Shown here: positions 33,511-54,184 of the stretch, in pieces | Layout: each line of letters starts with the position of its first letter | Numbering within the stretch: the stretch's first letter is position 1 | Translations under genes and position numbers: made by a program | Source: Anaerococcus sp. Marseille-P3625 | GTDB lineage: Bacteria; Bacillota; Clostridia; Tissierellales; Peptoniphilaceae | DNA length: 64,000 nucleotides | Direction of reading: 5' to 3' | Assembly (NCBI RefSeq): GCF_900232825.1 | Contig: NZ_OCTP01000008.1 | Coordinates: 1-64,000, forward strand | Notes under the pieces: model-generated | Seen by the model: only the letters and a program-made list of their open reading frames with translations | Told to the model about the DNA's origin: nothing | The model's database searches: none

Positions 33511-33524
33511 TCTTTAGGAATTTT

Positions 33525-33970
33525 TTAATATAATTTTGCACCCGCCGGGATATTTTTATCCAACATTATAAGATTTAACAACTCCTTGCCATCATATTCA
33601 CAAATTGCAGATATGATCATGCCATCAGAGTCAATGCCCATCATTTTTCTTGGTGGAAGGTTTGTTATGGCAAGTAGTGTTTTGCCTATCAATGACTCTG
33701 CTGAGTAATATTCCTTGATTCATGAAAGAATAACTCTTTCTTTTTCAGAACCATCATCTAGGGTAAATTTCAAAAGTTTTTTGGATTTTGGAACTTCTTC
33801 GCAATTTTTAACTTTTACAACTCTAAAATCAGATTTTGAGAATGTATCAAAATCAACCATATCTTCAAATAATGGTTCAACTTTTATTTTTGAAAAGTCG
33901 ATTTTTTCTGTCGTAAGTTTCTTTTGACGAATCCATATTTTCTGCCTTTTCTAAGCCTATTGGCTTCATT
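33525..33970 (-). pseudogene. metG: metG 3' fragment 1 (methionyl-tRNA synthetase tRNA-binding domain), degraded
   Basis: The minus strand encodes the C-terminal OB-fold tRNA-binding domain of MetG (KIKVEPLFEDMVDFDTF, then PPRKMMGIDS). It is closely similar to the fragment at 40086-40550. It carries an in-frame TGA at 33720-33722, where the other copy has a Gly codon, and a one-base frameshift in an A run near the start of the domain. Homology to metG ends abruptly at about 33971, where relaxase sequence begins. With the terminator behind it, this is the likely original chromosomal 3' end, displaced by element insertion and no longer selected. Confidence 0.88.
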
Positions 33971-34250
33971 GTAAAGATATGATGAAGTTTCTTGCAAGTT
34001 GGGCATTAGAATTTTTCTCAAAAAGTTCTACCGAGTTCCACAAGGTTTTTCGGTCTTTATATTCTTTTGGTGCGTGATCTGGTAAATATATTTCTTTGCT
34101 AATTACTCCTTGTTTTTTGGTGTAGTCATGGGTTACTCCGTCCCATTCATTTTTTATTTTTTCTCCACTTATATATGCTGCACTTGCTACTGCACTTTTT
34201 CCTTTTCCTCTTGATATTATGTTTACTGAAAAATGAAAACTGTCTGCCAT
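33966..34250 (-). pseudogene. MobA/MobL-type relaxase, 3'-truncated copy A
   Basis: This frame encodes the first 94 residues of a MobA/MobL relaxase (ADSFHFSVNIISRGKGKSA, then AAYISGEKIKNEWDG). It is nearly identical to copy B at 53403-53918. It breaks off at NFIISLQ exactly where metG sequence starts. I start it at the MADSFHF codon (34250), because GGAAG stands 8 bases upstream. The catalytic His residues of the relaxase fall beyond the break, so it cannot nick DNA. Confidence 0.85.
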
Positions 34251-34333
34251 TTTTATCACTTCCTTTCTTTCTTGTTGTTTTAGGTGGAGGCTTAGAAGAT
34301 TTTTTATATCCTCTTTGTGAATGAGCGTTTTGA

Positions 34334-34599
34334 AATACCCTTTGCCTAATCATTCAATCCACTCGCAAGCTCGTGGTGAATGATTGGCAGGGGCAGACCC
34401 TGATAGAATTAAAAAAGCCGACTACTGAATTAATTTTGTTGTTTCAGTATGTCGGCTTAATTGTTTATTTCATTTCAAATTTTAAAAGTAAAGGGCGAGT
34501 GTTAGCGAGTTTATTTACCCTTAACTTTCAATACCCTCGCCTAATTATCTCTACAACTCAAATAAATTTTCGTTGGAGATAATTGGCTGGGGCAGACCC
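34334..34599 (+). other. twin oriT-like hairpins of a mobilizable element
   Basis: Two related units lie between DUF3847 and the relaxase: 34334-34400 and 34530-34599. Each reads AATACCCT, then a stem beginning GCCTAAT and ending ATTGGC, then GGGGCAGACCC. The outer bases are the same, but the inner stem differs in a compensated way (CATTCA/TGAATG versus TATCTC/GAGATA). Between them is a terminator-like hairpin (34415-34458, AAGCCGAC...GTCGGCTT). Position next to a Mob relaxase start and conserved flanks suggest an origin of transfer. Confidence 0.6.
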
Positions 34600-34706
34600 A
34601 TTGTTGGTCTCTGCAAGGGTTTGGCTCTAAAGGCACGCAAGCACCCTTTAGGGTGTATAATTGCGCCCTTAGAAAATCTAGGGGAGATTTAATTATTTTA
34701 TTTTTC

Positions 34707-34997
34707 TTAATTTTCTCTCATTATTTTTAGTGTTTCTTTAAATTCTTTTGTCTTTGTTGCTTCTTCTAATAGGATTTTTATTTCTTCATCTGTTAGTTCT
34801 TCTGCATTTTCTATAAGGCTTTCTAAAATTGCTCCTCTTGTTATGAGCCTATGAGTTCTTTCTTTTCTTCTTTTTACTATGTCTTGTTTTAATATTTTCT
34901 TTTCTTGATTTTTTAGTTGCCTTAATCTTTCTTCTGTGTCATCTATTTTGTCTTTTATTTCTTTTGACTCTTGTCTTATTTGATCTAATTTTTTCAT
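34707..34997 (-). CDS. DUF3847-type mobilization accessory protein
   Basis: This 96-residue charged protein starts MKKLDQIRQESKEIKDK as a coiled coil and continues with RRKERTHRLITRGAILESLI, a pattern of DUF3847 proteins found next to MobA/MobL relaxases in Bacillota elements. It is probably a relaxosome accessory. AAAGGAG precedes the ATG. Two broken copies exist at 54185-54465 and 56160-56340, so only this one is intact. Confidence 0.75.
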   Translation of the reverse strand: MKKLDQIRQESKEIKDKIDDTEERLRQLKNQEKKILKQDIVKRRKERTHRLITRGAILESLIENAEELTDEEIKILLEEATKTKEFKETLKIMREN

Positions 34998-35021
34998 ATA
35001 AAACTCCTTTCTTTAAAATAA

Positions 35022-35050
35022 AAAAGAGATAACATTTTTGCTATCCATTT
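35022..35050 (-). terminator. repeated terminator, copy 1 of 3
   Basis: On the minus strand GGATAGC-aaaaat-GTTATCT followed by six T forms a stem with G-U pairs. The same block recurs at 37659-37697 and 54486-54515, together with flanking sequence (CTTTGAAA upstream). It lies directly before DUF3847 in two cases and behind the TIR gene in the third. Confidence 0.65.
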
Positions 35051-35099
35051 CAAAGATTAACTATTAAAAATATTATATTATCATCTCTAAAATCAGATA

Positions 35100-36928
35100 A
35101 TCGAATAGGGGCTAAGATCTAGCCCCTTTCACACCACCGTACGTGCCGTTCGGCATACGGCGGTTCAATTTAATTTACACATGTCCTGCTTATATAGTAA
35201 TCATAAGGGTCAATTAAGCCTGTTTTGCTTAACCTTTCTTTTGTGATTGCTCTTACTAAGCAGGTTTTCGTTGCTACAAAATAATACCTATCTCCACAAT
35301 AGGATGTTAATCTTGCTAGGTCTTTTACTATTCCCATTTTCCTTAACGCCCATTGTCTTTTCTTCGGTACCTTCCACATTTTCCAGCAGATTATTCTTAG
35401 TCTTGTTCTTAGGTGCTCGCTGAAACTTTTTAGTTTACTTTTCATACTAGCTATTTTAAAGTAGTTTATCCAGCCTCTTATTACTTCATTTAACTTTTTG
35501 ATTCTGTATTCTAAGGATACTGACCATTTTCTTGTGGTGAGTTTCTTCATTTTGTCTTTGAATCTTTTAAATGATGTTTCATGGACTCTTGCTTTCCATT
35601 GATTTGTTTTGTTGTCTTTCCAGTAGCCAAATCCTAGATATTTTATTTTGCTTGGTCTTGTTATTTTACTTTTTTCTGCATTTACTTTTAGGCCAAGTTT
35701 CTTTTCTATGAATCTTGTTATTGAGTGCATTACTCTTGTGGCTGCTGCTTTACTTCCTACAAATATTAAGCAGTCGTCTGCGTATCTGATGTATCTAAGT
35801 TTTCTTGCTTCTAGTTCTTTGTCTAGTTTGTCTAGCATTATGTTGCTTAGCAGTGGTGATAGGTTTCCTCCTTGTGGGGTTCCTATTTCACTTTTCTCGT
35901 ATATACCTTTGTTCATTATTCCCGCTTTTAGGTATTTTCTGATTAGTGATTCTGTGTCTGGTGCTTTGATGTGCTCATGGACTATGCTCATTAGTTTATC
36001 TTGTGGCACTTTGTCGAAGAATTTTTCTAGGTCTATGTCTACTACCCATTCGTACCCGTCGTTTAAATATTCTAGGCTTTTGATTATTGCCATTTGACAG
36101 TTTCTTTCTGGTCTGAAGCCATAGCTTGTTTCAGAAAATCTTTTGTCTATTATCGGGGTTAGGACTTGTACGATTGCTTGTTGGATTATTCTGTCCATTA
36201 CTGTTGGTATTCCAAGTTTTCTTTTTCCTCCGTTTGGTTTTGAGATTTCTACTCGGAGTACTGGTTGTGGTTTGTAGCGTCTTTCGATTATTTCTTGTCT
36301 TATCCCTGCCCAGTTTTCTTTGATGTATTCATCTATTTCTTCTACACTTATGCCGTCTGTTCCAGCTGCTCCTTTGTTGGAGATGACTTTTACTTTTGCT
36401 TGGTGCATGTTTTCTGGGTTTAGGATTTGACTGATTAGTTTATCTTCCATGTGTGCACTTGCTCCTTTCCGCTTACATAACTTTTTCTTAGGTGTAAGAT
36501 TTTGATTTCATTTACGTTTCTTCTACTTTCTCTGTCAGATTTGTTATGCTACATACATTTTGCTTGTGCTTTTAAATTGTTCGGTCCTTCGGTGTTTCCA
36601 CCTACTATGACTTCTGCTGACTTCTCACTATTCGTTGTTACTACTTCTTCGCTAGTGAGACCTCACGGGATAAGCCCTAATACTTTCATCGTTTACTTGC
36701 AGAATTTACGCCTTGGGTTTACGGTTACCTTTTGGGTCTTTGCTATCTACAGCTAGCTTGCCCACCTGTTACGCCTTATATTCTGTTCCTGTTCGTCAAG
36801 CCACGATTTCGCTACCCGTTCTTCTCTCCTAGATGTCGCCACCTAAAACTTCGGGGTCGCTATTAGATTCGTTGGTAACTACGCTCTGTAGGGATTTTCA
36901 CCCCAGCATTAGAACATGCCCGTCATAC
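35100..36928 (-). mobile_element. group II intron (class C) with maturase
   Basis: The intron 5' end is close to GTATGACGGGCATG (36928 downward). Domains V and VI lie at about 35167-35101 (stem GCCGTATGCCGAACGGCACG, then the AGGGGCT/AGCCCCT hairpin with a bulged A). The maturase is 35170-36450. The intron stands 5-6 bases after an intrinsic terminator hairpin (36934-36959), the typical target of class C introns. Ends are given to within a few bases. Confidence 0.8.
35170..36450 (-). CDS. group IIC intron reverse transcriptase/maturase
   Basis: This 426-residue protein has the seven RT blocks (GIPTVMDRIIQQAI, SYGFRPERN, YEWVVDIDLEKFFD, GTPQGGNLSPLLSNIML, catalytic IRYADDCLIF), a maturase X domain with RIKKLNEVIRGWINYF, and a short C terminus. 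It has no HNH endonuclease, as expected for class C. It would splice its intron RNA and prime reverse transcription at terminator sites. The full catalytic set is intact. The start follows GGAGC in the usual place within intron domain IV. Confidence 0.93.
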   Translation of the reverse strand: MEDKLISQILNPENMHQAKVKVISNKGAAGTDGISVEEIDEYIKENWAGIRQEIIERRYKPQPVLRVEISKPNGGKRKLGIPTVMDRIIQQAIVQVLTPIIDKRFSETSYGFRPERNCQMAIIKSLEYLNDGYEWVVDIDLEKFFDKVPQDKLMSIVHEHIKAPDTESLIRKYLKAGIMNKGIYEKSEIGTPQGGNLSPLLSNIMLDKLDKELEARKLRYIRYADDCLIFVGSKAAATRVMHSITRFIEKKLGLKVNAEKSKITRPSKIKYLGFGYWKDNKTNQWKARVHETSFKRFKDKMKKLTTRKWSVSLEYRIKKLNEVIRGWINYFKIASMKSKLKSFSEHLRTRLRIICWKMWKVPKKRQWALRKMGIVKDLARLTSYCGDRYYFVATKTCLVRAITKERLSKTGLIDPYDYYISRTCVN

Positions 36929-37702: not shown

Positions 37703-38623
37703 TTAAAATTTTAAGTCTTTTGAAATATCTTCTATATTTCTATAATGATTTTCTATTTCTTCTTGCTTTTTTGTTTTTAATTGTTCTTCTCTTCTTCTAT
37801 ATTGTTTTTCTTCTTCATTTGTTTTTTCTACACACAAAATCAAGGTATCTCTATGATATTGTTTTACCTCTTCGATTGTTGTTTCATCTAAAATGATTTT
37901 ATCAGATTCAACTCTAGCTATTCCAGGTCTATGCATTGATGTAAAACTTGGTGGGTAATCCCAATTTCTTAAAAACAATTCAGACCATGTGCTAGTTGGT
38001 TTGCTAGATAATCTAAAATGGATTCTATACAAAGCAGAACCTCTTGTTCCATCATTTTTTGGCAAGGTAACTTCATTTGTTATAATGCCCACTATTTTTA
38101 TATCCTCTCCCTCAATTGTTATTGGTTCATATTCATCAACATAATATGGTCTTATACCTACTTTAGGTTTCTTTTTAACTTTAAACATTGATGCAATAAG
38201 ATCCTTATATGAATCTTCATTAAATGGATTACCTCTTAAATCTATTGCAAGTTTTCCATCTAGGTAAGTAGGCAAAGCTGAATTAAAATCTCCTTGTCTA
38301 ATGACTGGAATAAACTTCCTATCATTGTGATTATTGTAGAGTTCCGCAGATATTATATGACTTTCATAACCTACACCTTTTTCTCTATTATTAGCTTTCC
38401 TTTTATACTCTTCAGTGCAAATTATAATTACATAATCACTATCTCTTATCGAGCTTTCCATAAATTTTGGAAGTCTATCCCCTGGACTTACATCATAACT
38501 ATCTATTATGGCTTCAATACCATCTACTAACAATTTATCTGCTAGAGATTTAACCCAATCAGAGTGTTCTTTGCTTTCCCACGAATATGATATAAATACT
38601 TTTGGAATATTGTTTTCTATCAT
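37703..38623 (-). CDS. TIR-domain protein, candidate defence effector
   Basis: This 306-residue protein has an N-terminal TIR/SEFIR-type domain (residues 1 to about 135). It opens with KVFISYSWESKEHSDWV, then DSYDVSPGDRLPKFME and SDYVIIICTEEY, and a Glu in GVGYESHII (about residue 87) at the position of the catalytic Glu of NAD-degrading TIRs. A separate mixed domain follows (about 150-265), and a Lys/Glu coiled tail. The C-terminal domain is not recognised. It lies in element DNA between DUF3801 and the HTH pair, 11 bp after the DUF3801 gene. Antiphage NADase is a reasonable guess. Confidence 0.75.
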   Translation of the reverse strand: MIENNIPKVFISYSWESKEHSDWVKSLADKLLVDGIEAIIDSYDVSPGDRLPKFMESSIRDSDYVIIICTEEYKRKANNREKGVGYESHIISAELYNNHNDRKFIPVIRQGDFNSALPTYLDGKLAIDLRGNPFNEDSYKDLIASMFKVKKKPKVGIRPYYVDEYEPITIEGEDIKIVGIITNEVTLPKNDGTRGSALYRIHFRLSSKPTSTWSELFLRNWDYPPSFTSMHRPGIARVESDKIILDETTIEEVKQYHRDTLILCVEKTNEEEKQYRRREEQLKTKKQEEIENHYRNIEDISKDLKF

Positions 38624-38634: not shown

Positions 38635-39012
38635 TTAAAATAAATCTTCTAGCCTTTTCCAGTTTTCATTATTCATTTCTTTTGTGTAGTTTGTATTGTT
38701 AATATAAAGTCTTGTATCTTTATCTCTAACAAACCCCCAATTTATTTTACGCCTATATGCGTAATCCTTAAAAGCATAGAATTTATTTTCGATTTGCTCA
38801 TCAATATTTTCCAGCTGACCTTTCTTTACCATATCCTTAAGTTTCCTTGAATTAGTTTTTCTTTTTTCACTAATATAATCTGCAAGTGGTTGGCTTTTTT
38901 CATCGGCATCTTCTATAATCTTTTTCATAGCTTTTAAAATAGCCTTTGCTGAATACTGAGTCACTTTTATCTCAATATTTATAGCCTTATTATTAACTTC
39001 ATCATTTACCAT
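38635..39012 (-). CDS. DUF3801/PcfB-like conjugation protein, short
   Basis: This 125-residue protein starts VNDEVNNKAINIEIKVTQ and contains SRKLKDMVKKGQLENI and INWGFVRDKD, the pattern of DUF3801 (PcfB) proteins. These sit just upstream of the VirD4-type coupling protein in Tn1549-like elements. The C-terminal part is shorter than usual and the coupling-protein gene is missing. The TIR gene starts 11 bases behind it, so the TIR gene has taken the coupling protein's place and expression signals. Confidence 0.65.
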   Translation of the reverse strand: MVNDEVNNKAINIEIKVTQYSAKAILKAMKKIIEDADEKSQPLADYISEKRKTNSRKLKDMVKKGQLENIDEQIENKFYAFKDYAYRRKINWGFVRDKDTRLYINNTNYTKEMNNENWKRLEDLF

Positions 39013-39039: not shown

Positions 39040-39073
39040 AAAAAAGCGGCCCAGACTTTTACATCTGAACCGT
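39040..39073 (-). terminator. terminator behind the CopZ-like gene
   Basis: On the minus strand CGGTTCAGA and TCTGGGCCG arms pair (with G-U) around a short loop and are followed by six T. It separates the CopZ-like gene from DUF3801. Confidence 0.8.
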
Positions 39074-39153: not shown

Positions 39154-39654
39154 CTATTGTTTGCTTTTTAATGCCTTATTGATGGTTTCTTGAATAAAAG
39201 GACTACAGCATTTTCCCAAAGGATTGTTAATTTCGCACTTTCCATTTTTCATTGCCCCTGTAAGTCTAATAATATCTTTAATATTCTTTGCACCATCATA
39301 TAAAACAGCGTTTATAATTTGTTGTTCTGTAACTTGGTTGCAATAGCATATATATTTGGGATTTGCATCCTTTTTAAACCATATAGGAACTTTTACATCT
39401 TCCTTATAAAAAACTCTTTCATTGTTTAAGTTATAATACACGACATCACAATCTTCATTCATACATAAATAGTAAGTTTCTTCATCTACAACCTTTCCCA
39501 TAAGGTTTTCTGATACCATATGCTTTACAGTTATATTCTTAACCTTTTCTCCTATTTTGTGACATTTGGGGCAATTCGCTTTTTCTTCCACTGTACCAGT
39601 GGTTTTTTGTATTGAACCTCAGCAAGATTGATTTATCTTATTTTCTTGACTCAC
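39154..39654 (-). CDS. CopZ-like Fe-S metallochaperone, candidate selenoprotein
   Basis: From GTG 39654 the frame gives 166 residues if TGA at 39621-39619 is read as selenocysteine (residue 12), right after Cys11. Without that, the only start left is GTG 39591, which has no ribosome site. GTG 39654 has AGGAGG 7 bases upstream. After the TGA come a CPKC zinc pair (28-31), a CMNEDCDVVYY segment and a BFD-like [2Fe-2S] domain with CYCNQV and KCEINNPLGKCC. That is the layout of CopZ-type Fe-S metallochaperones, whose N terminus typically shows a Cys-Cys pair as I recall. A hairpin meeting the bacterial SECIS rules follows the TGA. A plain nonsense mutation of a Cys codon is the alternative. Confidence 0.65.
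39588..39602 (-). promoter_or_regulatory. candidate bacterial SECIS hairpin
   Basis: On the minus strand CCACTG-GTA-CAGTGG is a perfect 6-bp stem with a three-base loop that begins with G. It starts 16 bases after the TGA, and the loop starts 22 bases after it. This agrees with published bacterial SECIS rules: a short stem, a loop of 3-14 bases with a G in the first two positions, and a loop 16-37 bases past UGA. Confidence 0.6.
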
Positions 39655-39903
39655 TTTATTTCCTCCTGTCTAAATAAATATTATTTCTATAGTTAATCAG
39701 GATATCTAATACCTCTTTCAATGGATCTACAGGTTGCAGCTCTTTTTTAGTCTTCTTTGTTCATTTTTCTTTCTACCAATAAGTGCCATAATGGATATAA
39801 GAAATTACTATATTATTACCCCTTATCCGTTTTATTGTTAAGATATATTATATCATAAATAGGTTTATAAGTCACTTTAGCCTATTTTATACTTGTGCTT
39901 TCG

Positions 39904-40020
39904 TTAGTATTTATTGAGATAGTCCTGGTTTTTTATTTGTCCCACTTGGAACTGCTCCAAATCGCAAGACAAATATTCATTTACTAGTTTTACTTTAAAT
40001 TCTTTTGTGTATTTTGGCAT
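39904..40020 (-). pseudogene. IS3-type transposase OrfA start, decayed
   Basis: The frame starts MPKYTKEFKVKLVNEYLS, the N-terminal helix of IS3/IS150 OrfA proteins. It then runs into unrelated residues and stops after 38 codons. A hairpin with CCCC/GGGG arms (40026-40062) stands in front of it, near where the IS end would be. Only about 150 bp of the IS remain. The rest of 39655-40085 shows no gene, apart from a 35-codon tail (KELQPVDPLKEVLDILINY) that ends at the CopZ-like ribosome site and may be the end of a lost upstream gene. Confidence 0.65.
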
Positions 40021-40085: not shown

Positions 40086-40565
40086 TTAATATAATTTTGA
40101 TCCTGCTCGAATATTATCATCCAACATTATTAAGTTAAGTTTTTCTTCTCCGTCGTACTCGCAAATTGCAGATATAATCATACCTTCTGAGTCGATTCCC
40201 ATCATCTTACGAGGAGGAAGATTACAAATCGCAAGCAGTGTCTTTCCAATTAAGCTCTCTGCGCTGTAATATTCCTTAATACCAGATAAAATAACTCTTT
40301 CTTTTTCAGAACCATCATCTAATGTAAATTTCAATAGTTTTTTAGACTTTGGAACTTCTTCGCAGTTTTTAACTTTTACAACTCTAAAATCAGATTTTGA
40401 GAATGTATCAAAATCAACCATATCTTCAAATAATGGTTCAACTTTGATTTTTGAAAGATCTAGATTTATTGATTTCCCACTTTCTTGATTTGTATTTTCA
40501 TTAGAAGCTTGACCAGAATTTTCAGTTTTTTCTTTGCCAACTGGCTTCATTGTTGGGAAAATCCC
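40086..40565 (-). pseudogene. metG: metG 3' fragment 2 (tRNA-binding domain), intact frame
   Basis: The minus strand encodes the C-terminal part of MetG. The frame continues upstream of the ATG at 40550 with IFPT (to about 40565), so the ATG is internal. The linker VGKEKTENSGQ is followed by the OB-fold domain (KIKVEPLFEDMVDFDTF, SDFRVVKVKNCEEVPKS, PPRKMMGIDSEGMI). It is the better preserved of two copies. It stands directly behind the integrase end and lacks the catalytic domain. It may still make a Trbp111-like tRNA-binding protein, but is most easily read as a displaced 3' end left by element insertion. Confidence 0.88.
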
Positions 40566-40706: not shown

Positions 40707-41657
40707 CTAAAATATAAATTTCATCGCTTTTTCAAATTCTCCCATCTGTTCTATCTTAAAATCTTCTGTTGCATCTACATATATATCCATTGTTGTACTA
40801 ATATCAGAATGACCTAGAATAGACTGCATTGCTTTTGTATTTATATTTTGTTCATTAAGCCTTGTAGTAAAGGTGTGTCTGAAAATGTGATTGCTTAAAT
40901 GTGGAACTAATAGAATATCATTAGAGTTCGATTTATTTTTATCCATTATACTTAAATTGCAATCTCTAACAATTCTTCTTAAAGCTTTATTAAGTGTTCC
41001 ATTATTGTGAACCTTTCCGAACCTATTTAAAAATACAAAGTCTTTAAATCCATCGATTGAATCACAACATTCGATTCCAAAAGTCTTTTGTAACTCTCTT
41101 TCCATAAGAAAAGCATCTTTTACTTTTTGAACCATAGGAATACTTCGCTTACCTGATACTGTCTTCGGTGTATTAATAGCATATCTATTGTTTAATCCTT
41201 TACCTTTACTATAATATACCAAAGTCCTATTTACATTTATAAGACCATTATCAAAATCTAGATCGTCCCATTGCAATCCTGTAACTTCTCCAACTCTCAT
41301 TCCTGTCCAAAGCATAACAATGAATATTGGATACCATTTTTTATATTCATCACTATTAGATAAATATTCTTCAAATAGCACCTGTTCTTCTATTGTCATG
41401 GCTTTTTTCTTCGGAGATTCGTTTCGATAAGCCACTTTCAATTCCTTCAAAGCATTGTCAGACGGATTAAACCTTATATATTCGTCATCCACTGCTAATT
41501 CTAAAACCTGATGTAAGACAGTATGGACACAATCTATGGTAGAAACCATCAATCTCTGGTCTTTCTTTAATCTGTTATAAAAACTTCTTACATCAGACCT
41601 TTTAATATCAGATAGTTTAATGCAACCAAAAGTCGGTTCGACAAATTGTTGATACAT
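40707..41657 (-). pseudogene. tyrosine integrase of an ICE, 5'-truncated
   Basis: This 316-residue frame keeps the core-binding part and the whole catalytic domain: first Arg in WTGMRVGEVTGLQW, HIFRHTFTTR, LGHSDISTTMDIYVD with the catalytic Tyr. It matches Tn916/Tn1549-type integrases, which have about 90 more N-terminal residues (arm-binding domain). The frame continues upstream for a few codons with NHIYMYQQF and then meets the 3' end of an IS30 transposase. Arm-site binding should be lost, so it is probably inactive in transposition. Confidence 0.85.
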
Positions 41658-43379: not shown

Positions 43380-44582
43380 TTAATCATTATCTCTTTGCAT
43401 CAATAATAATTCTACTTTATTTATTTTATTAATAGCAATAATTGAAGATATTGGTCCTAACAAGGTTCCCAAAATTATTACTATTATTAACATTAAAATC
43501 ATAAGGAATATATTCGGTCTTAAAAAAGGCATATTCAAAAGTGATGAAAATACATTATTGAAAGTTATACTTAAAACAAAGGAAAGCACAGAACCTATGA
43601 CTGCACCTGTACCATTAATTAGCATAGATTCAATAAGAACAACTTCACTGAGTTTTTTCTTTGTTGCTCCTAATATCCTTATGGTTGCAAATTCTCTTTT
43701 CCTTTCCTTAACTGATAAGGTATTTACAAGACTTAAAATAAAGAAAGCTAGTATCCAAATCAAAGCTATCAATATATACACATATACAAGCATGTTTTTT
43801 GCTGAATCTGAAACTTGTGTCATTATTTTTCTTGGCAATAAAGGATACACTTTTTCTTTTTTAAATTCTTCTTTAATAAGTTTTTGAATTGTTTTTGGAT
43901 CTTTGTTTTTTTCAACTTTTACTAAAATAGAAGATATATCATCTTTTTTTGCCACCGGATGATTAATTATCTTTTCATATTCCTTGGCTAATCTATGAGT
44001 TTCTTCTATTGTCATAAAAACTGAATTATCAAAACCCATGCCAGTTTTTGCAAGCCTACCTCTTATATCAAATTCTTGATTAAAAAATTTAACCTTATGA
44101 TTAATATCCCCCACAATATTAGCACCTACAACAACTTGTCCAGCTTTAATTGGAGTTTTAATCTGTTTTTCAAGCCAAGGTTTAACGCTAAAGTCATCAG
44201 AAAAGTCAATTCCTATAACTTGAATGGGAAAAGAACAGCATCCAGCAGAAAGTGTAGCTAGATAAACTTGGCCACAAGCTTTTTCTATGCCCGGTATTTT
44301 TTTTACCCTACTTAATATGTCCTTGTCAAAAAAAAATGTATTAGGTTCTCCCCTTAATATTGCACCTGTAATTTTGGAATCATAACCTTCTGGAACTACT
44401 ATAATGTCTGCTCCCATCCTATCTGATAAAGAATTCATGCCATTTTTAAGAGAAAAAATTATAAATGATGACATGAATAAAATAAAAGTTAAAATTCCTA
44501 CAAGAAAAATCAAGGTAATTGATCTTGTCTTCTTATTTTCTATATTTTTTTTTGCTAAATTAATTGTGTATAAATCTTTCAT
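43380..44582 (-). CDS. MacB/FtsX-type ABC permease, last gene of FTR1 operon
   Basis: This 400-residue protein has one N-terminal helix, a large extracytoplasmic domain (about residues 45-270) and three C-terminal helices, the FtsX/MacB topology. ERKREFATIRILGATKKKLSE before the last helices is the typical cytosolic coupling segment. It starts at the stop codon of the FMN-binding lipoprotein gene (one base shared). Together with the ATPase 45004-45723 and two other permeases it likely forms mechanotransmission-type transporters that handle reductants or iron outside the membrane. Confidence 0.85.
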   Translation of the reverse strand: MKDLYTINLAKKNIENKKTRSITLIFLVGILTFILFMSSFIIFSLKNGMNSLSDRMGADIIVVPEGYDSKITGAILRGEPNTFFFDKDILSRVKKIPGIEKACGQVYLATLSAGCCSFPIQVIGIDFSDDFSVKPWLEKQIKTPIKAGQVVVGANIVGDINHKVKFFNQEFDIRGRLAKTGMGFDNSVFMTIEETHRLAKEYEKIINHPVAKKDDISSILVKVEKNKDPKTIQKLIKEEFKKEKVYPLLPRKIMTQVSDSAKNMLVYVYILIALIWILAFFILSLVNTLSVKERKREFATIRILGATKKKLSEVVLIESMLINGTGAVIGSVLSFVLSITFNNVFSSLLNMPFLRPNIFLMILMLIIVIILGTLLGPISSIIAINKINKVELLLMQRDND

Positions 44583-45007
44583 TATTTTGCACTATCAAGA
44601 GCATTATTGCAAGCTTCGATAAATTGCTTGTAGGTTTCTGTTGCCCCCGAAATAACATCCACTCCTTCAGGATTTCCTTTTTCCACTAATTTATCTGGGT
44701 ATGACTTTGCAAGATTTATGGCTTGTTGGGCTATCTTATATAGTCCTTCATTTTGGCTTTGACCATAAGATTCATCCTTTTCTTTTCCATCTCCATCAAT
44801 GTTTTGCATTGTGCAAGATTCAATCTTATTGTCTTTAACACTTATATCCACTTTTACAAGTCCGCCTCTTTCATCTTTGGCAGATTCTCCATGATATGTG
44901 CCGTCCTTATAGCTTACACTTGGAGCTTCTTCTTTTTTATCTCCTCCACAAGCAACTAGGACAAGTCCCAAAGAAAAAATTATTAATAAATTTAAAATTT
45001 TTCTCAT
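44582..45007 (-). CDS. FMN-binding-domain lipoprotein
   Basis: This 141-residue lipoprotein has lipobox LVAC (Cys about residue 20) and an FMN_bind domain: DGTYHGESAKDERGG, then the flavinylation-type motif VISGATETYKQF, where Thr would carry FMN covalently. No ApbE gene is in the window. In the iron operon it suggests an extracytoplasmic electron carrier that could reduce Fe3+ before FTR1 uptake. It overlaps both neighbours by 1-4 bases. Confidence 0.85.
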   Translation of the reverse strand: MRKILNLLIIFSLGLVLVACGGDKKEEAPSVSYKDGTYHGESAKDERGGLVKVDISVKDNKIESCTMQNIDGDGKEKDESYGQSQNEGLYKIAQQAINLAKSYPDKLVEKGNPEGVDVISGATETYKQFIEACNNALDSAK

Positions 45008-45723
45008 ATAAACTCCTTAAGTTTATCATCTTTTTTTACAGAATCAAGAACTGGTCTTTTTCTTTTCATTTTTTCTTCTTTTGAAATTTTACCATGTTCA
45101 AGAGTTATCATTCTTTCAGATTCTTCACCGACTTCAGGGTCGTGAGTTACAACAATAATTGTTGATCCTGCATTATGAAGTTTTTCAAATATGTCAAGAA
45201 CTATATATTCATTCTTTTCATCCAAATTTCCTGTGGGTTCATCGGCTAAAAGTATTGTAGGATGATTAATAAGAGCTCTAGCAATGCATACTCTTTGTTG
45301 TTCCCCACCTGATAATTGGTTGGGTAAGTGCTTGGCTCTATCAGCAAGACCTACTGCAGCCAAAGCTTCCATTGCTTCTTGTGCATCTGGCATAGAATGA
45401 TAATATTGTGACATCATTACATTTTCCAAAGCACTTAAATAATTAACTAAATGAAATTGTTGGAAAATAAGTCCTATCTTATCCCTTCTAATAACTGTTA
45501 GTTCCTTAGGTGATTTTTTTGCTATATCTTCACCATCCAAAATAACTTCGCCAAGTGAAGGTTTATCCATGGCACCAATAATATTCATCATTGTTGTTTT
45601 ACCAGAACCTGATGGACCCATTATAGAAATCCATTCGCCTTTTTCTACAGTTAAATTGATTTTGTCAAGGGCTTTAAGTTCACCATAAATTTTTGAAACG
45701 TCTACGAGTTTTAATATATCCAT
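45004..45723 (-). CDS. MacB/LolD-type ABC ATPase
   Basis: This 239-residue ATPase has Walker A GPSGSGKTT, Q-loop FQQFHLV, signature LSGGEQQRVCIARALI, Walker B ILLADEPTGNLD and an H-loop VVTHDPEVG. It overlaps the FMN-binding gene and follows an FtsX-type permease by 11 bases. It is equivalent in place to the ATPase of the Campylobacter p19/ftr1 locus. Confidence 0.9.
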   Translation of the reverse strand: MDILKLVDVSKIYGELKALDKINLTVEKGEWISIMGPSGSGKTTMMNIIGAMDKPSLGEVILDGEDIAKKSPKELTVIRRDKIGLIFQQFHLVNYLSALENVMMSQYYHSMPDAQEAMEALAAVGLADRAKHLPNQLSGGEQQRVCIARALINHPTILLADEPTGNLDEKNEYIVLDIFEKLHNAGSTIIVVTHDPEVGEESERMITLEHGKISKEEKMKRKRPVLDSVKKDDKLKEFI

Positions 45724-45734
45724 AAAATTCCTTT

Positions 45735-46883
45735 CTATTCTCCACGAAGCACTAAAGCTGGATCAATATCAACAGTTTTAGATACTGGTATTAAAGATGC
45801 AACTATAGTTATTACTATACAGACAATAATTGTAATAGGTACTAAAAGAGGCAAGAAACTTACCTTTCTAGCAAATACCGAAATACTTACTCTATTGGCA
45901 AATACATATCCTAATGCAACACCTAAAAGTCCACCAAAAACCCCTAAAAATACTCCTTCACCTAAAAAGTCAACGATTACTGACGAATTTGTTGCGCCCA
46001 AAGCTTTCTTAAGACCTATTTCTTTACGCCTTTCAGTTACAACTGCCATCATTGTTGTGGATACACATATCATCATTATGAATAATACTATTATCGTTAC
46101 AATGAAGACAAGAGCTTGTAATTTATTCAAAACTATATCTTGTGAGGCGGTAACTCTTTTTACCATTTGTGGAGTTAGAGATCCATCCTTTTGTGAAATA
46201 TTTGATACTATTTTTGAAAGTTCATTTTGTTCAGCTTCTACTGAATATTCTACGACATCAAAATTTTTGTCTTTAACAAGCTGTGAAATATCATCAATAC
46301 CCATAAAAATAAGTTCTTCTTCTTTACCACCTGTTGTTACAACTCCTGAAACAACAAAATTAGTATCTATAGAACCTTCTCCATTAACTTTGGGAGTATT
46401 TATAATAATTTTATCTCCCTTTTTTAATTCCAAAGCCTTTGAAACTTCATTACCTATTAAAACTTCTCGAGGTTTTTCAGGCCATGAACCATCAATAAGC
46501 CAGTATGGAGAATTTTCTTTCGCTCCCTTTAAATCTGTACCTGCAAGCATATAAGGTTGTTCATTAATTTTTGCATTTGTATAAATATAGGGTGCCTGAC
46601 CGACAAGCTTTCCTGATGGAATTAACGATTTAATTTCATCTAACTGTTCATTGGTAATTTTTTTATCAGGGTTAGTGGGAATTACCAACATATTTGCACC
46701 ATAAGACCTAAACTCCTTACCCATTTGTCTAGGAATATCATAGTAAATAGTAACAAGTCCTGAAATAATTATTGCTCCCATAGCTATAGCAAGTAGTGCT
46801 GTTAACATTCTTGCACGTCTCCTTGCCAAGGAAGTCATTATCATTTTTAAGTAAAATTTATTTTTACTTTGTTTATCTGCCAT
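45735..46883 (-). CDS. MacB/FtsX-type ABC permease
   Basis: This 382-residue protein has an N-terminal helix (MTSLARRRARMLTALLAIAM), an extracytoplasmic domain (about 45-255) and three C-terminal helices. TERRKEIGLKKALGATNSSV is the coupling segment. It overlaps its sister permease gene by 11 bases. It is one of two adjacent permeases, as in the Campylobacter ftr1-p19 cluster. Confidence 0.88.
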   Translation of the reverse strand: MADKQSKNKFYLKMIMTSLARRRARMLTALLAIAMGAIIISGLVTIYYDIPRQMGKEFRSYGANMLVIPTNPDKKITNEQLDEIKSLIPSGKLVGQAPYIYTNAKINEQPYMLAGTDLKGAKENSPYWLIDGSWPEKPREVLIGNEVSKALELKKGDKIIINTPKVNGEGSIDTNFVVSGVVTTGGKEEELIFMGIDDISQLVKDKNFDVVEYSVEAEQNELSKIVSNISQKDGSLTPQMVKRVTASQDIVLNKLQALVFIVTIIVLFIMMICVSTTMMAVVTERRKEIGLKKALGATNSSVIVDFLGEGVFLGVFGGLLGVALGYVFANRVSISVFARKVSFLPLLVPITIIVCIVITIVASLIPVSKTVDIDPALVLRGE

Positions 46884-48156
46884 GTAGTACCTCCGTTGGA
46901 TTTAAATTCAAAAGGTATCTTATAGCTGGTATTGAACCCAATATTGTAACAAGAATAATAAGTATTGCTACAATAGGAACTACCATAGCTGTTGGAGCTA
47001 TTGCTGAACCAAAAACTGTTAGACCAATAATCTGAGTAAGTAGCAGACCAACACCGTAACCTATAACTGTTCCAAATATCGCTGTCAAAATTATTTCCAC
47101 AAGAATTATGCAAATTATCCTTCCATTTGACGCCCCTATAGCTTTTTGAAGTCCAATTTCATTAGATCTTTCCATTACAGATGCTGTAATAAGATTAGAA
47201 ATACCAAAGCCTGAACCAATCAAAGTTAATACTGTAATTAAAACCATAAGAAGAGTAGTCTTATTTAAAATATCTCCTTCACTTTCTGCAACTTGGCGAA
47301 TTGGCTTTGCTACAGAATCAGTCATTACTTCTGTTATTTGATAACAAATAGCAGAAACATAAGCTGTACAATACCATACTTCCCATTCCTTAATAGTTAA
47401 AGATAGTGGGTTTTTGGCAGCCTTTCTTGCTAAGTCATTGTCTGGTGTAGTAAGAGCTGATACTTCAACTTTATTTACAACTCCAGTAACTCCAGCAAAT
47501 TCTTGTGCTGTTTTTAAAGTAGAATATATAAATGCATCTTCATCAGAACCTGATGAGAAAATACCCTTAACTTTTAATTTTTTGTCTAAATTATTACTTT
47601 TTAGTTGGATTTCATCACCAACTTTAAATCCATTTCTGTCTGCAAAAATCTTTCCAAGCATAACTGAATCGCTATCATTTTCTGATAACCACTCGCCTTG
47701 AACTTCCCACCAGTTTTTAAGTCTAATCATACCAGTATCAACTGATTCTCCAGTAGGCAAATCCATATGATTATTAAACCATGTTCCTACCATCTTAGTA
47801 TGTTTAGAATCATTATTACAAGAAACCCAAGTGTTAAGATATGGCGTATAGTCTACAATATTGTAAGCCCAAAAAATAGTTTTAATGTTAGGAAGTTCTG
47901 ATTCCTTTAAATATTTTTGAACCTGCCCCTCTTTTTCTTGCATGCCATACAAATCATCAAGAAGGGAAGCTTCCTTTGGCAATACATTAATATTTGCTCC
48001 ATAGGTCTTTAATTCTTGATTAACTTTATCTCCAACACCGAGCATGGTATTTAACATTGAAGTGGCAAGAGAAGCTCCAAGGGCAACTGTAAATGCAATA
48101 AGAGCCATCTTTCCCTTTTGTCTAAAAAGCGCTCCTTTAACTATTCTCCAAAACAT
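46873..48156 (-). CDS. MacB/FtsX-type ABC permease
   Basis: This 427-residue protein has the same topology as its neighbour, with a larger extracytoplasmic domain (about 45-300) containing Cys in TWVSCNND, VWYCTAYV and AICYQI. That number of Cys is unusual for FtsX-like proteins and hints at metal or redox chemistry outside the cell. MERSNEIGLQKAIGASNGRI is the cytosolic coupling segment. It follows the DUF2318 gene by 8 bases. Confidence 0.88.
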   Translation of the reverse strand: MFWRIVKGALFRQKGKMALIAFTVALGASLATSMLNTMLGVGDKVNQELKTYGANINVLPKEASLLDDLYGMQEKEGQVQKYLKESELPNIKTIFWAYNIVDYTPYLNTWVSCNNDSKHTKMVGTWFNNHMDLPTGESVDTGMIRLKNWWEVQGEWLSENDSDSVMLGKIFADRNGFKVGDEIQLKSNNLDKKLKVKGIFSSGSDEDAFIYSTLKTAQEFAGVTGVVNKVEVSALTTPDNDLARKAAKNPLSLTIKEWEVWYCTAYVSAICYQITEVMTDSVAKPIRQVAESEGDILNKTTLLMVLITVLTLIGSGFGISNLITASVMERSNEIGLQKAIGASNGRIICIILVEIILTAIFGTVIGYGVGLLLTQIIGLTVFGSAIAPTAMVVPIVAILIILVTILGSIPAIRYLLNLNPTEVLHGR

Positions 48157-48164
48157 AAGCCCTC

Positions 48165-49448
48165 CTACTTAAATACATAAGACAATGCGTCAAGATCTTT
48201 TGGATCAATCTTTATCTTTTTATCATGGACAATGTATGGGAAAGGTATCGGGTTACATCCACCCTTAAAACCTATTGTACCCCTATTCATTACAACGTCG
48301 CACAACTTACAAATAACATCATCGCCTCTTTCAAAATATCCAGATGGACCACATATCTCGCAGGCATCAAGTACAACTCCATAGGAACCTTCTGATTTTT
48401 TAATGCAGAAAAATCTCAATTCTACACCATCCTTTGCCTTATACAAATATCTGTGCAAATGCATATCCTCTAAGCTACTTAAAGGAATAACAATCATTCC
48501 ATTTTCAGTCTGATAATCTTCAGGTGGTGAAAGGGCCTGTTCCTTATTAGCATATGCCTTTCCAACAGTTAATGAAAAAGTATTAATAAATAGAACGACA
48601 AGGAAAAAAATTGCCCAATGTCTTTTATTCTTCATTCTATACTTTATTTTTCTTAATTGAGCCCTATTGCTATAATCTTCATTAACTTTAATATTTTGCT
48701 TATATAACATTACCGGAATAACCATCATAATTAACATTGTTGCAAATAAAAACATATTTTCGTGATTAGCTATAAATGCAATAACTCTAAAAAAGTTAAC
48801 ATTTCTAGGAATAATCCCTTTAGAATAAAACCTTTGAATTATGATATTAAATTGGCTGATACCCGAGCATATCAAGCTAAGAAAAACTACAATCTTTAAG
48901 TTTTTACCTTCAAGTTTAACTGAGGACTTGTATATGGCAAGCCCTGATAAAATCATCATTATTATTCCAAAAACAAATCCTAAAATCCTAAAAAGTACAA
49001 TTGTTGAAACTGCACTTTCGCCATAATATACAAATTTGTTTGATTGGTTAAATACATATGGTAAATAATAAAAACAAATTCCTACAAGATAAACAACAAC
49101 CGATGCTGAAATGAAATTATCATAAATTTTAGCATTTATCTTATCTTCAAATACCATAAAAATTAATATTAAAAGTACCGAGATAACTATGGGTACCATA
49201 GACAAGAAATTCAATTCTGTCCTATTAATAAAATTAGGTATATTTCTTATAATTATTGAAACAATTGCTGCAATTATCCCTAAAACTAAAGAAATTATAA
49301 TAACATACTTTTTATATTTACTTTCTTTAGTTGTATAATAGGCAAGCATTAAAGAGATCATTAGAGAAAAGGCTATTCCCGCCTCCATAACTTTAATAAA
49401 AATTTTTAAAATAATTTCACCCCCAATAAATGTATATAAGGGGAACAT
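48165..49448 (-). CDS. DUF2318 Fe-S-type membrane protein
   Basis: This 427-residue protein has about nine or ten N-terminal membrane helices (to about residue 295) and a C-terminal extracytoplasmic DUF2318 domain. Its Cys motifs are DACEICGPSGYF, ICKLCDVVMNR and GGCNPIPFPY. These resemble CxxC pairs of metal or Fe-S sites, and such proteins are regular members of FTR1/P19 operons. A likely role is electron transfer to reduce iron outside the membrane. The start may lie a little downstream, as MLFPLYTFIGGEI is a weak N terminus. Confidence 0.85.
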   Translation of the reverse strand: MFPLYTFIGGEIILKIFIKVMEAGIAFSLMISLMLAYYTTKESKYKKYVIIISLVLGIIAAIVSIIIRNIPNFINRTELNFLSMVPIVISVLLILIFMVFEDKINAKIYDNFISASVVVYLVGICFYYLPYVFNQSNKFVYYGESAVSTIVLFRILGFVFGIIMMILSGLAIYKSSVKLEGKNLKIVVFLSLICSGISQFNIIIQRFYSKGIIPRNVNFFRVIAFIANHENMFLFATMLIMMVIPVMLYKQNIKVNEDYSNRAQLRKIKYRMKNKRHWAIFFLVVLFINTFSLTVGKAYANKEQALSPPEDYQTENGMIVIPLSSLEDMHLHRYLYKAKDGVELRFFCIKKSEGSYGVVLDACEICGPSGYFERGDDVICKLCDVVMNRGTIGFKGGCNPIPFPYIVHDKKIKIDPKDLDALSYVFK

Positions 49449-49484
49449 GAATTCCCCTTATAAATATTATAAATTTTTAAAACT

Positions 49485-50186
49485 TTACCATTGTGGTCCG
49501 TTCCATTCGAAGTCAGTCCATTCTGCAACAAGTGGTTCTGTCCAGAATCTACCTGTTACACCAGTTTCTTTATCTACGTGTAGTAAGTAGTCATTACCTG
49601 GTGCAGTAACTTCAAATTTTACATTATAAACGCCAACACCTTCGTCAAATTTAATATTTGCACCGTAGTGTGGACCATCAGATGCGTTCATTGGCATGAA
49701 AGCTACTTCTTGAACATGGTCTGAACCTTTCTTTTGTAAATAAGCTTTTACTTGTAACCATGGAACGAAATCACCAACACCATAACCTAATGTCGCACCT
49801 TCTTGTGATGCTGTAATGTCAGCTTCAATATGGCAATCAGCTTCTTCTTTAGGAATTGAGTTTCCTGCCGGTTCCATATCTACTGGTTGGAAATATACAC
49901 CTGAGATTACTAGAGGTCCTTCAGTATGGTCATCGCCAATTGGGAATTCTTCGAAGCCTGCATCTTCTCCTGGAGCTGCAGCTTTTGAATCTTCTGCTTC
50001 TTTCTTGTCTTCTGCAGCTTTTGCATCTCCTGCTTCTTCCTTGTTTCCTTCAGCTGGTGTTTTTTCTTCTGTAGAAGTTTTAGCTGTATCATTAGCTTTT
50101 GTATCTTCTTTTTTACCACAAGCTGCAAACATTAATACACACGCAAGTGTCATAACAACAAGAGATAAATTTTTCTTTTTTAACAT
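49485..50186 (-). CDS. P19/Tp34-family iron-uptake lipoprotein
   Basis: This 233-residue lipoprotein has lipobox MFAAC (Cys about residue 22). An Ala/Glu/Lys-rich linker runs to about residue 72, then the P19 domain: GPLVISGVYFQPVDMEPAG, DCHIEADI, FMPMNASDGPHYGANI and HVDKETGVTGRFW. The His and Met seen here are the copper/iron-binding residues of Campylobacter P19. It sits next to the FTR1 permease, its known partner. GGAGGA precedes the start. Confidence 0.93.
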   Translation of the reverse strand: MLKKKNLSLVVMTLACVLMFAACGKKEDTKANDTAKTSTEEKTPAEGNKEEAGDAKAAEDKKEAEDSKAAAPGEDAGFEEFPIGDDHTEGPLVISGVYFQPVDMEPAGNSIPKEEADCHIEADITASQEGATLGYGVGDFVPWLQVKAYLQKKGSDHVQEVAFMPMNASDGPHYGANIKFDEGVGVYNVKFEVTAPGNDYLLHVDKETGVTGRFWTEPLVAEWTDFEWNGPQW

Positions 50187-50195
50187 GATATCCTC

Positions 50196-51533
50196 CTATT
50201 TTTTTTCTTGGCTGGCTTCAAGCTCAGCTCTAATTTTTTTGTTTCTATTATTTTGATAGATAACAGAAACAATGGTTACTACTAATAGAATAATTTGTGG
50301 AATAAGATTTTCATACCTATCGTATATACCTATAGCTTCAGCAGACCATCCATTCATCCAAGGAACTATAGTTCTGCCAATTACATCTGCTTCTTGTAAT
50401 TCTCCTATGCCCTTTCCTAAGAAAGACAAGCAAAGTATAAACATTAGCCAAGAAGTAAATGTAAAGAATGGTTTTAATGGTAGCCTTACAGAAACTTTAG
50501 CAATTAAATAATATACAATTGCAAGTATTATGGCGGCAACTAAAAGTCCAATCCACATATGCATTGGATTATCAGAAATGCCTGTTCTCATACCTTGGAA
50601 AAACAAAATAAGTTCTGCACCCTCTCTTGCTACTGCTAAGAATGAAGTGAAAGATAAGGCAAAATAATTACCCCTGGAAACAGATTGTTCAACTTTGTTT
50701 TTAATGTATCTATTCCAAACTTCAACTTCAGATTTAGAAAGCATCCAATTGGATACATAAAATAGTACGATAACGGCAAGAAACATCGCAATTCCTTCGA
50801 ATATTTCTTGTCCCATTCCAGACTCAACTTCTCCCACTGTATTGGCGATGATATTAAATACTCCAGCTAGGACTACTGAAAAAACAATGCCTAGCAAGGC
50901 TCCAATATATACACCTTTTAAATAAATTCTATTATTAGTCTTTGATAAATATGCAGCAATGGCAGCTACAACTAAAATGGCTTCAAGCCCTTCACGAAGT
51001 GTAAGTCCAAGAACCGCAAAAAATGTACCAAATCTTTTTAGCAGCTCTTCCAACAATTGACCTGTTGATAGGCTGTTTGCATCTTCTTGACTTTGACCAC
51101 TGGACTTAGAATCTCCAGAGGTTCCATCAAGAGTATTGGCATCTTCATGAAGATAAGTTATAAGTGCATCAATTTCATCTTTAACTTCTTTTGGGTCTGC
51201 ATCTTCTTTGATAGAATTTTTTGCTCTGTAAAATTGATGTTCAACCATTGAACCCCTTTGGCCTGAAATTGCAGACATAGTTGTTTTTTCAAATCCGATT
51301 TTCTCATAGAATTTAAAGTAAGCAACATTAATTGCATCTGTGGCTGCTTTTTTAGCATCCTTATCTCCAGGCTTGTAAACTTCCACGGCCTTTTGTAAAT
51401 GTTCTGACATAGCATCAGCGACTTCAACCCAGTTACCATACTTTGTTTCTGCCGCAAAAGCAGACGTGAAAGTGAGGGTAATCATGATTACTATCATTGC
51501 GAAAATGCTAGCCCTTTTCTTTAATAAATTCAT
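50196..51533 (-). CDS. FTR1-family iron permease
   Basis: This 445-residue protein has a signal-like N-terminal helix and a helical extracytoplasmic domain (about residues 27-160). Seven membrane helices with both REGxE-type iron motifs follow: LREGLEAIL (about 180) and AREGAELILF (about 300). FTR1 takes up iron delivered by P19 in Campylobacter and Yersinia systems. The layout resembles the long FTR1 proteins of Gram-positive bacteria. Its 5' end overlaps the preceding ATPase gene by 26 bases. Confidence 0.95.
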   Translation of the reverse strand: MNLLKKRASIFAMIVIMITLTFTSAFAAETKYGNWVEVADAMSEHLQKAVEVYKPGDKDAKKAATDAINVAYFKFYEKIGFEKTTMSAISGQRGSMVEHQFYRAKNSIKEDADPKEVKDEIDALITYLHEDANTLDGTSGDSKSSGQSQEDANSLSTGQLLEELLKRFGTFFAVLGLTLREGLEAILVVAAIAAYLSKTNNRIYLKGVYIGALLGIVFSVVLAGVFNIIANTVGEVESGMGQEIFEGIAMFLAVIVLFYVSNWMLSKSEVEVWNRYIKNKVEQSVSRGNYFALSFTSFLAVAREGAELILFFQGMRTGISDNPMHMWIGLLVAAIILAIVYYLIAKVSVRLPLKPFFTFTSWLMFILCLSFLGKGIGELQEADVIGRTIVPWMNGWSAEAIGIYDRYENLIPQIILLVVTIVSVIYQNNRNKKIRAELEASQEKK

Positions 51534-52212: not shown

Positions 52213-52607
52213 TATGAATGTCTTTCTTTCATAAAATAATAAATATTAACTAAAATCAATATGCCTGCCAACAATGTGCAAAATGGAATGGTTTTTGCTC
52301 TGCAAGCCATATCGGCTTTCATACATCCACTAATAAGCACATGAGCGTTTAGTATCTCTAAAATACCAATTGCTATATTTGAAATAGATAATCCTAAAGA
52401 TATTTTTGAATCTTTAACTACAATAAGAATAATTGCTAATACTAAAATGACTGCGCCAATACCTATAGTCATATTTCCCATCCAATGGCATTTCATGAAC
52501 ATCCCATTTTCCATAGGAGGACAAACGGGTGTTATATATTTTGGTGCAAGCACTAACAAAAAACCTATAATAGCAGAAATATATCCTAAAATCTTCTTTC
52601 TACTCAT
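52212..52607 (-). CDS. DUF4418 membrane protein, first gene of the FTR1 operon
   Basis: This 131-residue protein has four membrane helices and several Cys (ITPVCPP, MKCHWMG, GCMKADMACRA, IPFCTL), the pattern I associate with DUF4418. I start it at ATG 52607, which has AAGGA 8 bases upstream; the ATG at 52616 has no room for a ribosome site. It begins 16 bases past the feoB remnant with no terminator between. It may be a metal- or redox-linked membrane partner of the FTR1 system. Confidence 0.75.
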   Translation of the reverse strand: MSRKKILGYISAIIGFLLVLAPKYITPVCPPMENGMFMKCHWMGNMTIGIGAVILVLAIILIVVKDSKISLGLSISNIAIGILEILNAHVLISGCMKADMACRAKTIPFCTLLAGILILVNIYYFMKERHS

Positions 52608-52622
52608 TTTAATCATCCTTTC

Positions 52623-53918: not shown

Positions 53919-54002
53919 TTTTATCACTTCCTTTCTTTCTTTGTTGTTTTAGGTGGAGGCTTAATAGATTTTCTATATCCTCTTTGTGAATGAGCGTTTT
54001 GA

Positions 54003-54069: not shown

Positions 54070-54184
54070 AAAGCGAATGGTTGTTGGTCTCTGCAAGAGT
54101 TTGGCTCCGCATGACGCAAGCACCCTTTAGGGTGTATAATTGCGCCCTTAGAAATCTAAGGGAGATTTGATTATTTTATTTGTT

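Follow-up and report, generated by a model that had tools for sequence, protein, structure and literature searches.

A probable CopZ-like selenoprotein with a Cys-Sec tail, encoded by a mobile gene in Anaerococcus sp. Marseille-P3625

A new member of the Csac_0668 family

CopZ-type selenoproteins have already been catalogued. A table row of PMC13188914 gives 'form 2, Csac_0668 family, CU' as a selenoprotein with a CU motif, and '(2Fe-2S)-binding protein (copper chaperone Copz family) form 2' stands in a list in PMC9312934. The 'form 1' protein of PMC13188914 has the cd10141 domain family in common with the protein studied here and also contains Sec, but carries it in a GxUC motif rather than in CU. 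We analysed a gene of this kind in a window of 64,000 nucleotides (the whole stretch of DNA under study, positions 1 to 64,000 of contig NZ_OCTP01000008.1 of Anaerococcus sp. Marseille-P3625). Its main features are as follows.

39154..39654, minus strand: coding sequence of the predicted Csac_0668/CopZ-like selenoprotein, 166 aa with Sec12, GTG start and TAG stop
39619..39624, minus strand: codons 11-12, TGC-TGA (Cys-Sec), with TGC at 39624-39622 and TGA at 39621-39619
39662..39667, minus strand: Shine-Dalgarno sequence AGGAGG, 7 nt before GTG 39654, present in 13 of 13 fetched near-identical copies
39047..39072, minus strand: terminator-like stem-loop and T run 3' of the gene, a consensus match only

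The predicted protein matches NCBIfam NF045877 (CopZ_Nterm_CU), the "Csac_0668 family 2Fe-2S cluster-binding (seleno)protein", with 266.7 bits (E 6.9e-80, cut-off 190), its residues 3-163 covering model positions 2-161 of 161. Pfam recognises zf_CopZ at residues 26-88 (9.2e-25) and Fer2_BFD at residues 101-140 (1.3e-06). The N-terminal CC or CU motif of the family is present as TGC-TGA at codons 11-12, aligned with the CC of relatives. With the CU motif and both domains shared, and nothing found against membership, the protein is a new member of a family already catalogued (NF045877; PMC13188914). The CopZ_Nterm_CC model (NF047645, putative iron-sulfur cluster-binding metallochaperone) has the two-domain body in common (match 10-150), but the score of 92.2 bits falls below its cut-off of 100 and the model is Cys-Cys by name.

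Residues 27-152 also align with PDB 2hu9 (E 2.2e-21), the cysteines of both domains included, but the alignment runs from chain residue 3 on and the solved chain has no counterpart of the Cys-Sec tail. The deposition is titled 'mercuric transport protein periplasmic component'; we regard it as an N-terminal fragment of CopZ from Archaeoglobus fulgidus, a protein that in full length ends in an Atx1-like domain. Copper chaperones of the A. fulgidus type thus share zf_CopZ and the BFD [2Fe-2S] domain with our protein, but the Atx1/HMA domain is absent here: Pfam gave no match to one at the C terminus, and the frame ends at residue 166. No Cu-ATPase was found among the neighbour ORFs scanned. An AlphaFold model built from 14 rows has a mean pLDDT of 66.3, with residues 1-23 below 50, and is too weak for claims on the Sec site.

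We found that the start codon GTG occupies 39654-39652, that the TGA of codon 12 is followed by 154 sense codons and then TAG (39156-39154), and that the frame holds no other in-frame stop. With UGA read as Sec, the product would have 166 residues and the N-terminus (M)SQENKINQSCU. This anatomy agrees base for base with an earlier note made from the sequence alone, which had proposed GTG 39654, TGC at codon 11, TGA at codon 12 (39621-39619) and a frame open to 39154; its AGGAGG ribosome site, placed at 39661-39667, lies exactly at 39667-39662. Because the table 11 ORF list shows only a 145-codon frame from GTG 39591, a straightforward gene prediction would miss the Cys-Sec tail. Could the real protein nevertheless start at GTG 39591, without the tail? 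One relative does begin at that place, with ATG and an upstream AAGGAG, but GTG 39591 has no Shine-Dalgarno-like sequence before it, as had been noted, while GTG 39654 has a good one. Moreover, GTG 39591 sits in the 3' arm of the hairpin described below, and 13 of the 14 aligned rows retain the Cys-Cys/Sec tail. We consider this shorter protein very unlikely.

The relative in question, L036 from Tissierella sp. P1 (4900-5060), is tail-less, with ATG at the place of GTG 39591 and AAGGAG upstream. We take the sequence before it to be a MerR-type promoter-like dyad.

Reading of the UGA at codon 12 and its hairpin

From 110 related stretches in species-representative genomes we kept 80. Thirteen relatives (L021-L032 and L037) are 90-98% protein-identical to the window copy; of the resulting 14 near-identical copies, window included, 11 have UGA at codon 12, whereas L022 and L028 have TGT (Cys) there and L023 has GGA (Gly). 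Five further forms at 61-65% identity (L033, L034, L035, L116 and L135) also have UGA after Cys. The remaining relatives are mostly Cys-Cys, some without a recognised pair or without the tail. In a 14-row alignment that prints Sec as Cys, 13 rows have Cys-Cys or Cys-Sec at residues 11-12, which bears out the expectation that homologues would mostly carry a Cys pair near the N terminus; the exceptions to the pair are the Gly of L023 and, in the wider set, eight rows without a recognised pair, tail-less L036 among them. In a sample of 391 genomes from the class, NF045877 finds a match at E 0.001 in 48; 21 score above its cut-off, six of the 21 with an internal TGA in the over-cut-off copy (G000, G205, G284, G301, G392 and G406).

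The organism's own genome (2.09 Mb in 11 contigs, 99.89% complete) contains selB (331.5 bits), selA (520.9), selD (343.4) and tRNA-Sec (68.9), each over its cut-off. The selA and selB genes adjoin each other and tRNA-Sec at C1:673468-676756, and selD lies on contig C8; the check for selA, selB, selC (tRNA-Sec) and selD that had been proposed for this genome is therefore positive for all four. The grdA gene of this genome, at C1:669691-670134, contains a single internal TGA. The complete Sec system and the TGA within grdA both argue against a UGA read by suppression or by a reassigned code that inserts Trp or another residue; aligned relatives have Cys at this place and never Trp, and we find such a reading scarcely conceivable.

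Downstream of the tail, comparison of the window copy with the near-identical copies other than L026 (12 of 13) gives dN/dS from 0.07 to 0.55, single values being rough as each pair has only 2-6 synonymous changes. Between the more distant forms, dN/dS is 0.18 for L033-L135 and 0.11 for L033-L034. As all ratios are below 1, they point to a gene under purifying selection and therefore not to a pseudogene. The alternative raised in the earlier note, that a CopZ gene of the Cys-Cys type has suffered a nonsense mutation, draws on the TGA being one base from TGC or TGT and on the truncated mobile genes nearby. We rejected it as extremely improbable: the TGA is shared by 11 of 14 near-identical copies and by the five relatives at 61-65% identity, no other in-frame stop is present, dN/dS is below 1, compensation keeps the hairpin, and the genome has both the Sec machinery and a TGA-containing grdA.

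Downstream of the TGA lies the candidate SECIS element.

39588..39602, minus strand: putative bacterial SECIS hairpin CCACUG-GUA-CAGUGG, conserved, with two-sided changes in two of its pairs, and within published limits

The perfect 6-bp stem with a GTA loop reported at 39602-39588 was confirmed, 16 nt from TGA to stem and 22 nt from TGA to loop. The bSECIS limits quoted in the available part of PMC13188914 are a loop of 3-9 nt, a stem of 4-16 bp, a distance of 16-37 nt from UGA, a G within the first two loop positions and an MFE of at most -7.5 kcal/mol. Applied by hand, they all admit the window hairpin (loop 3, stem 6, 22 nt, -7.5 kcal/mol on 48 nt), in agreement with the fit claimed before, with the energy exactly at the limit and zero margin. 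On 48 nt, 5 of 11 UGA forms miss the energy limit (L029, L031 and L032 at -5.2, L035 at -5.1 and L116 at -5.9, the last with z +0.83), the stretch of L135 being one codon out of register in this comparison. Equal or better folding than the -7.5 kcal/mol of the window occurs in 7/200 shuffles. A comparable Watson-Crick stem follows 52 of the 2267 TGA trinucleotides on both strands of the window (2.3%), or 300 of 2267 (13.2%) when G-U is allowed. When the downstream peptide was synonymously recoded 20000 times, 12.5% of the resulting sequences had such a Watson-Crick stem. Taken alone, the window hairpin is weak evidence for a SECIS.

Its conservation and covariation in relatives, by comparison of the DNA, argue strongly for one. 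We compared 11 distinct UGA 48-nt stretches, six from the near-identical cluster and five distant; L021, L024, L026, L027 and L037 are identical to L025 over these 48 nt and are represented by it. In total, 65/66 cells are paired and six cells are changed on both sides. At pair 21/33, 7 stretches have C-G and 4 have U-A; at pair 23/31, 8 have C-G, 2 have U-A and 1 has U-G. The 23/31 change costs two amino acid replacements (T19I and V22M), which occur together in L029 and L031; L032 has the first (T19I) alone, as a G-U pair. None of 500 shuffles reaches the paired percentage, the two-sided cells or the covariation score, measures that kinship among the rows inflates; the number of two-sided pairs (two) and the pair types are reached by 249/500 and 470/500 shuffles, respectively. 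When the partners are slid by +3, 66.7% of cells are still paired.

A stem of at least 6 bp with a G early in the loop is found in 10 of 11 distinct UGA sequences (L116 has 5 bp) versus 2 of the 32 distinct rows of Cys type that lie beyond the near-identical cluster, where it stands at other positions; this comparison gave no Cys pair for eight rows, starts its scan one codon late in rows with CCG, and lost L124 (no CPxC). Within the cluster, both Cys copies have a damaged hairpin: L022 lacks the outermost pair, and L028 is mispaired at a position within the stem and adopts a different MFE fold. The Gly copy L023 keeps the hairpin.

The reverse complement of the hairpin, followed by a T run, gives a terminator-like match on the plus strand (39588-39602), and an antisense terminator could be read there instead of a SECIS. 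However, no plus-strand ORF of at least 60 codons ends at this place, and in L033, L034, L035 and L135 the A run that would supply the T tail is shorter or broken up, with stem, loop and distance to the UGA kept. We judge the terminator reading highly improbable, and the UGA at codon 12 is very probably read as selenocysteine.

A tree of the family places L028 inside the UGA copies and L022 and L023 weakly there, and neither supports nor contradicts the UGA forms as a single clade. It omits ten rows dropped for length (L035 included) and seven more loci skipped as duplicates or unclear, and its row L057, labelled Sec through an upstream CU outside the gene, is a Cys form. Because of their place among UGA copies, we infer that UGA is the older state in L022, L023 and L028, which are likely recent exchanges of Sec for Cys or Gly. 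Alternatively, their codons may be single-base sequencing errors, above all in L023, whose hairpin is intact.

In Thermoanaerobacterium saccharolyticum (L049:3860 onwards), an in-frame TGA is the third codon after the last Cys of the tail. Neither selA nor tRNA-Sec was found in that genome, and this TGA is a nonsense change or a sequencing error.

Movement of the gene and its surroundings

The window gene is 96.0-99.2% identical in DNA to the copies of 13 hosts, whereas their SelA proteins are only 43-76% identical to the organism's own SelA. Among the hosts, Oribacterium sinus belongs to Lachnospirales and Finegoldia magna to Tissierellales. The organism's own genome is in the family of G284, whose selA has the same place as the selA of the Finegoldia genome. 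The comparison of identities indicates that the gene has moved between orders and supports the earlier description of it as mobile. The homology blocks around the gene end at differing points among relatives.

In four relatives (L028, L030, L031 and L032), one block holds a whole Thioredoxin_9 gene (PF14595 3e-32 in L030) together with the selenoprotein-type gene; among the fetched loci, the Thioredoxin_9 gene occurs in the near-identical cluster only. These blocks start at one exact junction, GGG followed by AACGTGTCATAATAG, at position 4156 in each. By Pfam, the junction lies inside the N-6 methylase gene hsdM in L030 and L031 and inside hsdR in L032; in L028 the gene is, by eye, apparently hsdM. 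The four loci share one mobile-element end, which follows GGG within genes of type I restriction-modification systems. The window lacks this junction motif. Directly downstream of the gene, L032 has DUF3801, RepA_N and ATPase genes. In the window, remnants flank the gene.

39735..39963, minus strand: remains of a small regulator-like gene (its promoter region and disrupted 5' end), which now run into the selenoprotein gene
39659..39730, minus strand: final 24 codons of a Thioredoxin_9 gene, of which L028, L030, L031 and L032 have the whole (tblastn 92%, residues 152-175)
38635..39012, minus strand: shortened pcfB-like mobile-element gene, similar by eye in its N-terminal part to L032:5644-6138 (DUF3801)

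The small regulator-like gene, presumably XRE-type, is intact in L025 (70 aa at 4752-4964); in the window, its promoter end is fused to the thioredoxin remnant. A promoter-like GTGACT-17-TATAAT lies at 39875-39847 on the minus strand, a consensus match only. The L032:5644-6138 copy matches PF12687 (8.7e-25), and the window copy has no Pfam match; we take DUF3801 to be linked to PcfB. Further mobile remnants are a tyrosine integrase (40707-41657) and truncated MobA/MobL genes at 33966 and 53403, along with the repeats and group II intron matches given below. No conjugation-pore gene was found among the 28 of 55 window ORFs (at least 100 codons) that were scanned. By these matches, the surroundings appear to be a worn mobile region with remnants and no intact element. 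The proposal that the gene lies in an ICE finds only partial support in the window, where the scanned ORFs show mobile remnants and no intact element; the clearer mobile-element context is that of L028, L030, L031 and L032.

The distant UGA forms have no constant neighbour: L033 lies beside a gene for an SF0329-type protein, L034 beside an amino acid permease and a metallo-beta-lactamase-fold protein, L035 beside acetyltransferases and a peptidase, L116 beside NUDIX and 2'-5' RNA ligase genes, and L135 beside an ACR3 arsenite efflux gene and recombinases.

We made several other observations in the window. Two direct copies of a tRNA_bind-domain stretch (33521-33972 and 40086-40550; 78% over 300 nt), which we take to be metG 3' ends, bracket the selenoprotein region, and L022 and L023 have the stretch on both sides of their copy; it is possibly an integration site. 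Direct repeats at 33971-35076 and 53639-54544 comprise 94-97% identical pieces, about 19.5 kb apart, with the truncated MobA/MobL genes. A TIR/SEFIR-domain gene (37703-38623) downstream of the selenoprotein gene is carried along in L022 and L023. An operon-like run at 43380-52616 encodes an FMN-binding-type lipoprotein, FtsX/MacB-type permeases, LolD-type ATPases, an FTR1 iron permease and DUF4418; positions 50104-52713 are 93-96% identical in L092. Group II intron matches lie at 35100-36845 and 57094-59776, with a group II reverse transcriptase/maturase gene (NCBIfam) at 57248-59116 and a similar ORF at 35170-36450.

Host range, proposed function and comparison with known systems

We found selA (over cut-off) and tRNA-Sec in all 14 genomes of the near-identical cluster, including the three hosts of Cys or Gly copies; the search for selB covered the organism's own genome only. 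Because 3 of 14 near-identical copies lack the UGA in hosts with selA and tRNA-Sec, Sec would not be indispensable.

A second, Cys-Cys copy (L060-L093) is nearly identical across Bacillota, Bacteroidota (Prevotella/Porphyromonas) and Actinomycetota (Coriobacteriales), and is also found on plasmid pAPRE01, typed as conjugative (L136). It is a widespread mobile gene.

Only 6 of 29 searched hosts of this nearly identical Cys-type copy have selA over the cut-off, compared with 14 of 14 for the near-identical cluster (Fisher P 5e-7, or 5e-6 minus the three non-UGA copies); in the class sample, selA is present in 6/6 genomes with the UGA form and in 4/15 without it (P 0.004). These P values overstate certainty, as genomes are related, the first set is non-random and drafts may miss genes. 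The Cys-type search held 35 genomes, 10 with selA, the six beyond the 29 being other Cys-type relatives, 4 with selA; no selA was found in the L061 genome. L081, L087 and L084 belong to genomes already represented by L029, L030 and L083, so two further Cys-type hosts (the genomes shared with L029 and L030) have selA beyond the 6/29. Both types occur together in Peptoniphilus duerdenii (L029 and L081) and Finegoldia magna (L030 and L087). We see about even odds that this is a mobile Sec-requiring gene whose host range is set by the recipient's Sec decoding, a limit from which the Cys-type relative is free, and that recipients able to decode Sec repeatedly replace the UGA by a Cys or Gly codon, with later decay of the SECIS hairpin.

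Gene anatomy, family, Sec machinery, UGA conservation, hairpin covariation, purifying selection and horizontal movement are established at the level of sequence, and we assign a probability of about 0.94 to the reading that the gene encodes a CopZ-like selenoprotein of 166 aa, started at GTG 39654, with a Cys11-Sec12 tail and Sec insertion at UGA12 that depends on SelB and the hairpin. Translation would start at GTG 39654, and the ribosome would meet the UGA at codon 12, where SelB and Sec-tRNA(Sec) would bind the hairpin 16 nt downstream and insert Sec. The Cys-Sec tail would precede a body of zinc-binding zf_CopZ and BFD-type [2Fe-2S] domains. Cys-Sec pairs are suited by their chemistry to a redox or soft-metal role. 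This chemistry and the gene pair in four relatives suggest that the Cys-Sec pair of the tail is redox-active or binds soft metals in the service of the Zn/[2Fe-2S] body, with the Thioredoxin_9 protein encoded just upstream in those relatives, and lost in the window, as a possible reductant. The arsenite efflux neighbour of L135 and the MerR-type promoter-like sequence before L036 are leads only with respect to the metal. The gene itself probably travels as mobile-element cargo among Sec-decoding anaerobes.

With Sec, Cys and Gly copies this similar, the contribution of Sec could be tested directly in one protein; if host range is indeed set by Sec decoding, natural pairs 96-99% identical in DNA would be available for asking what Sec adds. 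Among the titles listed for the literature on selenoproteins, CopZ and ICEs, none concerned a mobile Csac_0668 gene. Documented bacterial Sec-to-Cys changes concern mainly FdhA and SelD according to PMC13188914, and a figure legend of PMC1794560 shows FdhA and a HesB-like protein as such cases. Compared with the catalogued NF045877 family, the window copy is without the upstream Thioredoxin_9 gene of its four relatives and has a foreign promoter region in front. Beyond the catalogue and the available part of PMC13188914, the present comparison points to movement of the gene between orders, an exact junction in restriction-modification genes, and copies in which Cys or Gly stands in place of Sec.
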